The notes below the pieces were generated by a model. That model was not told the DNA's origin, did not search any database, and saw nothing but the letters and a program-made list of their open reading frames with translations. From positions 1-22,665 of the IMG/VR virus record IMGVR_UViG_3300032235_000662: DNA of 22,665 bases. The stretch is one strand, 5' to 3'. Shown one piece after another: positions 16,649-18,647 of the stretch (the first letter of the stretch is position 1; every line of letters starts with the position of its first letter). Made by a program: the position numbers and the translations under genes. Source of the stretch: a virus.

Positions 16649-17475
16649 TGGTAAAAAAGTCACTAGGAGATTTTGATACTTCTAAGGCACTATTAGATGA
16701 AAGTGCAGAAAAGAAAGCTCTAAGAATTGACGAACAAGGGCAGGCTCAAGTAGACCTAAATGTTCTTAGAGAAAAGTGTAGCGTATTTTTCGCTACTCCC
16801 TGTTATGGTGGATTAGTTACTGATCAGTTCTTCTTAAGTATCTTTAAGGCTTCTCAAGAATTAGTAAGACATGGCATTACTTTTAGACTAACTACTCTAA
16901 GAAATGAGAGCTTAGTTACCAGAGCTAGAAATATCCTGTCTGCCATGTTCTTAGAATCTGGAGCTACCCATCTATTCTTTATTGATGCAGATATTGAATT
17001 TGATCCTGATTCAGTAATTAGAATGCTTGCAATGGATAAAGATATTATTGCAGCGGCTTATCCTAAGAAAGCTCTACCAATTCAATATGCTATGAACTTT
17101 AAGTATATTGATCCTGTAAAAAAGCAGATCCGCGTAGAAAACGGAGCTGTTGAGGTTTGGGACGCTTCGACCGGGTTCTTCTGCATTAAGCGTGAAGTCT
17201 TTGAAAAGATGATGCTCGCTTATCCTGATCTACACTATAAGAATGATAGTAATATCGATCCTAAGTTACAAAAATTCTGCTATGCGTTTTTTGATACGAT
17301 GATTGATAAGGATGAGAATGGGGATAATAGATATCTATCAGAAGATTATACTTTCTGTAGACTGTGGCAGAGATTAGGTGGTGAAATTTGGATGGATCCA
17401 AATACAAGACTAAACCATGTAGGCTCTTACACATTCGAAGGCGATCTAAGTAAGATTATCGGTACAGGTAGATAA
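16648..17475 (+). CDS. GT-A type glycosyltransferase
   Basis: The 275-residue protein has a GT-A fold. A first strand SVFFATPCYGG (45-55) opens it, then a nucleotide-sugar segment RNESLVTRARNIL (85-97). The metal-binding D-x-D is in HLFFIDADIEFD (Asp113, Asp115), STGFFCIKREVFEKM is at 174-188, and an acidic SEDYTFCRLWQRLG (231-244) carries the likely base. His257 follows in LNHVGS. Such enzymes transfer a sugar from a nucleotide-sugar donor. The acceptor could be modified DNA, a phage protein or host glycan. Being translationally coupled to the ssDNA-binding protein hints at, but does not show, a DNA substrate. The 40 N-terminal residues (charged, Ala/Lys/Glu-rich) are an extension. Confidence 0.8.
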   Translation: MVKKSLGDFDTSKALLDESAEKKALRIDEQGQAQVDLNVLREKCSVFFATPCYGGLVTDQFFLSIFKASQELVRHGITFRLTTLRNESLVTRARNILSAMFLESGATHLFFIDADIEFDPDSVIRMLAMDKDIIAAAYPKKALPIQYAMNFKYIDPVKKQIRVENGAVEVWDASTGFFCIKREVFEKMMLAYPDLHYKNDSNIDPKLQKFCYAFFDTMIDKDENGDNRYLSEDYTFCRLWQRLGGEIWMDPNTRLNHVGSYTFEGDLSKIIGTGR

Positions 17476-17612
17476 TTTTAGGCATAGCTCTGGCGACGCC
17501 ACGCTTATGCACTCCGTGCAACGCAATATGTCTCTCCGAGACAACGTAATCGAACACCGTGGGGGGTCGCTCTTGAACAGCTGATCACCTGCGGTGTTTT
17601 CGTTATCACCTA

Positions 17613-17638
17613 TATGCAATAAGAATAGCATACTTTTT
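17613..17638 (+). terminator. Weak terminator-like hairpin at the end of the GC-rich element
   Basis: TATGC (17613-17617) and GCATA (17628-17632) enclose a 10-nt A-rich loop and are followed by C and five T (17634-17638). The 5-bp stem is weak; it may mark the 3' end of the structured RNA. Confidence 0.3.
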
Positions 17639-17650
17639 GATCTCCGTCAA
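17622..17650 (-). promoter_or_regulatory. Candidate minus-strand promoter reading into the GC-rich element
   Basis: Read on the - strand, TTGACG (17650-17645), a 17-bp spacer and TATTCT (17627-17622) match the spacing of all six + strand promoters here. The start would be near 17615, giving an RNA antisense to the structured element and then to the glycosyltransferase. The -10 matches only 4/6. Confidence 0.35.
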
Positions 17651-17678
17651 AATTAAAATTTTAAATTAGGATTACTAC

Positions 17679-18647
17679 ATGAAAATTCTACATAGTGCTG
17701 ATTGGCACATAAATTTACACAGAAAGAAAGTACCATCCGACTGGAGTGCTAATCGTTTTAGACTCTTTTTTGATGAGCTACACAAACTAGAAGATAGCCA
17801 TGATATTCATATTATCTCTGGTGATGTGTTTGATAGGAAGCCAGAACCAGATGAAATCTGCTTATTTCTAAGATATGCGAATGCAGTTCGCATACCAACA
17901 TACATAATTCCAGGTAATCACGAAGCTACTAAAAAAGGGGAAAGCTTCCTTGAGCATTTTCACGAAGACTACGCAATTACAAATCCGAACTTGGTTCTTA
18001 TTACTAAAAACAGACGCGAAGTTATTATGGATCAGAAGTTTTACTTTTTTCCGTATGGTGAACTTCAAAAGGATAATTTATGGAGCGCTGAGGGAGATGA
18101 AATTCTCATTGCTCATATTCGCGGAGAGGTTCCCCCGCATATTACGGAGGAATACAGTTTTGAGAAGCTTCGTGCCTGGAAACTCATACTTCTCGGTGAC
18201 ATACACTTTGCTCATAAGTACATGGATTATCCTGCTTGGTATAGTGGTTCTCCGATGAATACTAGCTTTGATCGTGATGATGGGAGAGACTATGGAGTTA
18301 ATTCTATACAGTTTAATTCTTGTAACGATTATAGTGTTAATTTCGTACCACTAAAACTTCCAAAGCTTATTCGTAAAACACTAAAAGCTGGCGAGCAGAT
18401 GAAGCAAGATAGCTTTAATCATACAATATATGAAGTTACTGGTTCTGTAGATCAACTAGCTAGCATTAAAAACTCTGAGCTGCTTGATAAGAAGATTGCG
18501 ATTAAGCCTACAGAAAACTCTAAGCTAGATCTTAAAAACCTAAGCCTTTCAGAAGAGTTAAAGGTTTATTTGAACTATATAAAAGTATCTAACGTAGAAG
18601 AAATTGTAAAAGACTTTCAAGATTTAAATATCAATGCTAGAACTTAA
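17679..18647 (+). CDS. Recombination nuclease subunit, gp47/SbcD/Mre11-like
   Basis: The 322-residue metallophosphoesterase carries the Mre11/SbcD motifs: HSADWHINLH (Asp8, His10), ISGDVFDRKP (Asp49), IPGNHEATK (Asn80, His81), IAHIRGE (His146) and LLGDIHFAHK (Asp174, His176). Together with the gp46-like ATPase it would form the nuclease complex that processes DNA ends for recombination-dependent replication, as T4 gp46/47 and T5 D12/D13 do. The C-terminal ~100 residues form the usual capping/partner-binding region. TAGGA (17667-17671) lies 7 nt before the ATG. A weak TTGATC (17637)-TTAAAT (17661) pair could be a promoter. It overlaps the PP-loop gene by 14 nt. Confidence 0.88.
   Translation: MKILHSADWHINLHRKKVPSDWSANRFRLFFDELHKLEDSHDIHIISGDVFDRKPEPDEICLFLRYANAVRIPTYIIPGNHEATKKGESFLEHFHEDYAITNPNLVLITKNRREVIMDQKFYFFPYGELQKDNLWSAEGDEILIAHIRGEVPPHITEEYSFEKLRAWKLILLGDIHFAHKYMDYPAWYSGSPMNTSFDRDDGRDYGVNSIQFNSCNDYSVNFVPLKLPKLIRKTLKAGEQMKQDSFNHTIYEVTGSVDQLASIKNSELLDKKIAIKPTENSKLDLKNLSLSEELKVYLNYIKVSNVEEIVKDFQDLNINART

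Follow-up and report, generated by a model that had tools for sequence, protein, structure and literature searches.

Background

What does a GC-rich interval lacking any conserved gene do within the replication-gene block of an uncultured phage? The question is raised by a 22,665-b virus contig, IMG/VR record IMGVR_UViG_3300032235_000662 (the window, by which we mean the whole stretch of DNA analyzed). The nearest relatives of its DNA polymerase are those of T5-like phages (~41% identity), and its gene order (ligase, helicase, primase, polymerase, UvsW/D10-like helicase, SSB, gp47/D12-like and gp46/D13-like) agrees with that of phage BF23 and T5-like Vibrio phages. The D11-D12 gap of BF23 is 36 b; in the window, the D11 and D12 counterparts are separated by a glycosyltransferase-like gene (GT, 275 aa) and by the element described here, which lies within the replication-gene block. 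The interval between GT and the gp47-like gene (17466-17679 in the window, with its equivalents in relatives) is an insertion hot spot of 0 to ~2.4 kb whose gene content differs between relatives.

No conserved gene is found at 17476-17678, and 67 of the 120 bases at 17481-17600 are G or C, as the initial annotation of this DNA had counted, against 32.9% G+C across the window. Only 7 of the 22,545 segments of 120 b in the contig reach that count, those listed lying around 17477-17481. The initial annotation proposed this patch as a candidate undescribed phage structured RNA with at least four hairpins, read in the + sense.

Results

The element recurs in uncultured T5-like phages

Using blastn and nhmmer, the element was found to recur in many uncultured, mostly marine T5-like phage contigs of IMG/VR. 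In an alignment of 54 distinct near-full-length sequences, similarity drops sharply on both flanks of a conserved unit, which we annotate as a candidate self-contained sRNA gene (promoter plus transcribed region; 17471-17655, - strand). A covariance model, R1, detects one copy each in most related contigs. It also detects more divergent copies at different loci, among others in contigs G002, G003, G010, G019 and G020. G002 and G019 have two copies each, and G003 has as many as three, of which the third is a weak match (E 0.007).

Rfam returned no match at the gathering threshold for the window and seven relatives, and none even at E≤10 for the 361 b searched, which is consistent with an undescribed family. 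Among 50,697 annotated phage records there was no match to the element, only one chance hit and matches to gp47 coding sequence, and the covariance model gave none of the 13 pattern matches in bacterial genomes any support other than the pattern. A pattern scan for the copies that we term A-type returned mostly chance hits in GC-rich phages. The RNA family appears to be undescribed, being absent from Rfam 15 and from the open-access literature covered by a limited search; the general kind, a phage sRNA, is already known, and it is the family that appears to be new.

The minus strand carries a conserved sigma-70-type promoter

The most conserved block of the element reads TAAAnTARCAYA...CAA on the + strand and forms an extended -10 sigma-70 promoter on the - strand. 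When 32 representative sequences were tabulated, the pattern TTG-N17-TANNNT, with TG just before the -10, was present in every one, so that each has its own conserved promoter upstream of the RNA, as is expected of an independent sigma-70 sRNA gene. TTG, TG and TA are invariant and the spacing is 17 b throughout, the spacer being otherwise variable; the last T of the -10 (-7T) is kept in 30/32, and the predicted +1 is a purine (A or G) in all. In 30 of the 32 elements, it outranks every other promoter-like site of both strands. The pattern was not found in the stretch examined of L212, one of a set of divergent copies that we term B-type.

The window promoter is TTGACG-N17-TATTCT, and a promoter scan independently lists the same site with its extended -10. 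On the - strand, the -35 element TTGACG occupies 17645-17650 and the extended -10 element TGC-TATTCT occupies 17622-17630 (-10 proper at 17622-17627), with transcription predicted to start at an A at ~17615. Upstream of the -35, an A/T-rich tract (17651-17668, - strand) carries T at three positions in 29-31 of the 32 sequences and may function like an UP element. A + strand sigma promoter, TTCACT-N17-TAGCATA, was rejected: among the matches listed, the intact motif in a related 117-kb contig was the element itself.

Pairing also bears on the strand. The helix around hairpin 2, P3, contains 21 G-U pairs across the alignment when read in the - sense versus 5 in the + sense. Because of the conserved - strand promoter and these wobble pairs, the transcript is most likely made from the - strand, and not in the + sense that had been assumed at first. 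Single-sequence folding of the window favors the opposite strand: relative to shuffled sequences, the + strand gave z -3.1 for the region and z -3.35 for 17471-17615, and the - strand was weaker (z -1.9 and -1.8). The advantage of the + strand is due largely to a long stem that is not conserved. This stem of ~19 pairs with G-U pairing (17553-17571 with 17579-17599), proposed in the initial annotation, is predicted in the window sequence, but beyond the closest relatives only ACACCG/CGGTGT is partly kept, and it is gone in most families (alignment A1).

Three hairpins and an outer helix are supported in relatives

Read on the - strand, the element contains three hairpins with triloops of the form C-GNA-G, N being variable; this loop is found in H1 and H2 throughout and in H3 in nearly all relatives. 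H1 (TGCAC-GGA-GTGCA, 17508-17520) has stems in relatives such as TGCAC, GCGAAC, GCGCAC, GGCAAC, GAGCAC and AGAAC, each with its complement. H2 (TGTCTC-GGA-GAGACA, 17529-17543) is 99.3% paired over five pairs, two of which are changed on both sides, with stems such as GTCTC, GGCAC, GGCGC and GCTTC. H3 (CACC-GCA-GGTG, 17586-17596) is 100% paired in 29 sequences and shows compensatory change in one lineage, L017, where three pairs are changed on both sides. The arms of P3, GCTGT (17577-17581) and ATATT (17525-17529), are paired in 92.4% of cells on the - strand, with two pairs changed on both sides; four of the five pairs form in the window. No G-U was seen in the inner pairs of H1-H3, an outcome that a DNA hairpin would also give.

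Covariation was evaluated over 13,695 column pairs against a tree-based null of our own making, which simplifies the R-scape approach. The three top-ranked pairs belong to H1, H1 and H2, a further H2 pair ranks 10, and all four fit base pairing. Against all 13,695 pairs none falls below E 0.05 (best 0.43); when scaled to the 25 proposed pairs only, a rescaling of our own, the four give ~0.0008-0.03. For the structure as a whole, 84.3% of cells in the - strand alignment are paired versus 30-52% in slid controls, and its covariation score was reached by 0 of 500 shuffles. Conserved secondary structure with covariation is thus supported for H1, H2, H3 and P3. A further helix, P4, is unsupported (59% paired); the 3' hairpin H0 pairs imperfectly to an equal degree on both strands; and the closing helix P1 of a + strand RNA (GUGACGU/ACGUUGU) consists mostly of invariant G-U pairs with no compensation.

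The hairpin set proposed at the outset survives in part. Hairpin II is H1 and is conserved, while hairpin I (17482-17510) is predicted for the window sequence alone and is not kept in relatives. Since hairpin I is unsupported, so is the switch between I and II suggested by their shared bases. The hairpin at 17529-17543, here H2, was additional to that set; it is present in the single-sequence fold of the window and conserved in relatives, and it is this hairpin and H1 that covary. The core proposal, an undescribed phage structured RNA, is supported by the conservation of this noncoding element, its covarying stems and the lack of an Rfam match.

Two observations concern hairpins in individual contigs. 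In L005 (1712-1800), H1 occurs twice in tandem, with ATGCACTCCGTGCA repeated ~30 b apart, as if by local duplication. In contig G005 (L189-L194; 112,794 b), perfect C-TNC-G / C-GNA-G triloop hairpins are abundant genome-wide in both orientations, ~40 having stems of at least 5 pairs (e.g. TTGAAC-TTC-GTTCAA); the related 117-kb contig has far fewer.

Paired repeats and the 3' region

Two short direct repeats, 20-21 b apart, lie just after the predicted start at about +6 to +14 and +26 to +36. Repeat 1, GGTGATAAC (17602-17610, - strand), carries a GUGA(A/U) motif and changes in step with repeat 2, AGGTGATCAGC (17580-17590, - strand), across families, as judged by eye in alignment A3: the pairs are GUGAA/GUGAA in most, GUGAU/GUGAU in the window family and G005, and GUAAA/GUAAA in L017. 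This joint change suggests that both repeats contact one shared partner; they could instead be operator DNA.

A conserved 3' region (consensus ACGTCAC-N4-TGYGTCT; 17479-17499, - strand) is kept in the main, A-type and B-type families and probably marks the 3' end of the RNA. A terminator-like 3' end occurs only in some relatives (L007, L207), so there is no consistent intrinsic terminator, and none is predicted for the window copy. A search for antisense targets, based on the longest exact complementarity, covered the window and the 117-kb relative; for the window, matches were no longer than those of shuffles.

The element is independent of its neighbors

The element, usually antisense to the operon, begins at the stop codon of whichever gene precedes it, and at least 10 different genes (GT and several unrelated ORFs) occupy that place. 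The gene on its promoter side varies as well (gp47-like, a 207-aa ORF and others). In G002, G003 and G010, the B-type copies have the opposite orientation relative to flanking genes and share the sense of their operon. A leader or riboswitch would be expected at a constant sense position upstream of a related gene; here, the gene downstream is not constant and B-type copies point the other way. These variable neighbors and reversed copies make a leader or riboswitch unlikely and fit a stand-alone transcription unit.

Four B-type copies (L207, L211, L212 and L240) lie between two small lysine-rich genes, one of 58 aa (MAKHKKMPMK...) and one of 70-72 aa with lysine/arginine runs at its end; these copies extend into the first gene's ribosome-binding site. 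A-type copies (L208:2-523, L213 and L229) follow a glycosyltransferase gene of phrog_2170, the window GT belonging to phrog_1574, and the 3' end of the A-type RNA overlaps the end of the glycosyltransferase gene in antisense.

Discussion

The element combines conservation, covariation of stems, promoter architecture and independence from neighboring genes and their orientation. We consider it probable that the element constitutes, on the - strand, an independent phage sRNA gene that is read by sigma-70 polymerase and encodes a trans-acting regulatory RNA; expression, ends and the role in trans we infer from sequence. Host RNA polymerase with the housekeeping sigma factor would read it from its own extended -10 promoter (17622-17650), and in T5 the host sigma-70 RNA polymerase serves all gene classes (PMC7472727). 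The predicted RNA of ~140 nt would start near 17615 and end near 17471-17480, folding into H3, H2 and H1 with P3 bracketing H2. It would act in trans as a stable regulatory RNA, for which the unpaired GUGA(A/U) repeats and the GAACANGGC segment may be contact sites for target RNAs or a protein. Counting against this reading, the - strand has just a modest folding advantage over shuffles (z -1.8), smaller than that of the + strand.

Phages are known to encode trans-acting sRNAs, e.g. OOP/PreS of lambda and VpdS of VP882. The element shares with these a short noncoding RNA, a host-type promoter of its own and an intergenic position, but has no known similarity to them in sequence or structure and no Rfam match. 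Like the CsrB/RsmZ sponge RNAs, it would carry several similar stable hairpins in one small RNA, and the H1 and H2 loops of the window are GGA; it differs in having only three hairpins and a variable middle loop base (GUA, GCA, GAA), and it has no Rfam match. Since any of G, U, C and A occurs as N of the CGNAG loop among relatives, GGA is not required, in contrast to the CsrB/RsmZ loop.

More tentatively, the element might represent a class of decoy RNA, present in 1-3 copies in uncultured T5-like phages, whose early transcript would use its GNA-capped hairpins and co-evolving GUGA(A/U) repeats to titrate a host or phage protein, for instance an RNA-binding or defense protein. We offer this as a possibility to which we give limited weight.

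The main rival to the sRNA gene is a replication origin acting at the DNA level, in which a transcript from the promoter primes leading-strand synthesis and the hairpins serve replication proteins. Origins of the T4 and ColE1 types work through a promoter and a short structured transcript that primes replication, and the element resembles them in possessing both within a replication region. The 1-3 copies per genome in either orientation, which would then amount to several origins, as reported for T5, the direct repeats just after +1 and the nearly perfect stems without G-U agree with such a role. However, the GC-skew turn in the 117-kb contig tracks gene strand, at ~18 and ~68 kb, and does not coincide with the element (54 kb), the - sense G-U pairs of P3 favor RNA, and no initiator-box family was recognized; on balance, we find an origin rather unlikely.

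Less probable again is that the promoter alone matters, with antisense transcription interfering with upstream operon genes and the RNA being incidental. The usual antisense placement of the element, with its end at the stop codon of the gene before it, is what this would predict. Against it, the genes upstream are not always the same (GT and several unrelated ORFs), B-type copies have the same sense as their operon, and covariation is seen in the hairpins of the transcribed part.

The gp47-like operon might instead have a + strand cis leader, a riboswitch or a processed RNA, along the lines proposed in the initial annotation. The element does adjoin gp47 in the window and its close relatives, and the + strand does fold better. 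In other relatives, other genes follow the element and the neighbor is not always gp47-like; B-type copies are oriented against the operon, the conserved block forms a - strand promoter and the P3 wobble pairs favor the - strand, leaving little probability for a + strand product of this kind.

Promoters of the N4 virion RNA polymerase are template-strand hairpins centered at -11 (PMC4496689). Early promoters in the N4 genome itself carry the same C-TNC-G / C-GNA-G triloop hairpins, and the element has C-GNA-G stems in the same orientation, on the template strand. It differs in having a sigma-70 promoter instead, together with a conserved body and a single cluster per genome in the main family, and protein and family searches found no N4-like virion RNA polymerase in 14-16 related contigs of up to 173 kb, possibly fragments; we regard promoters of this type as very improbable here. 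The open - strand frame of 61 aa (17446-17631) is almost certainly not the remnant of a coding gene, since transcription is predicted to start downstream of its ATG, its first codons include a stop in L033 and L003, and relatives differ by indels whose lengths are not multiples of three.

Conclusions

Small RNAs of phages are few in number, and laboratory phages have supplied most of those known; the element described here is present in dozens of uncultured T5-like contigs. Its promoter is conserved well enough for the start of transcription to be predicted to the base. Our findings suggest that the intergenic regions of T5-like phages contain unrecognized RNA genes.
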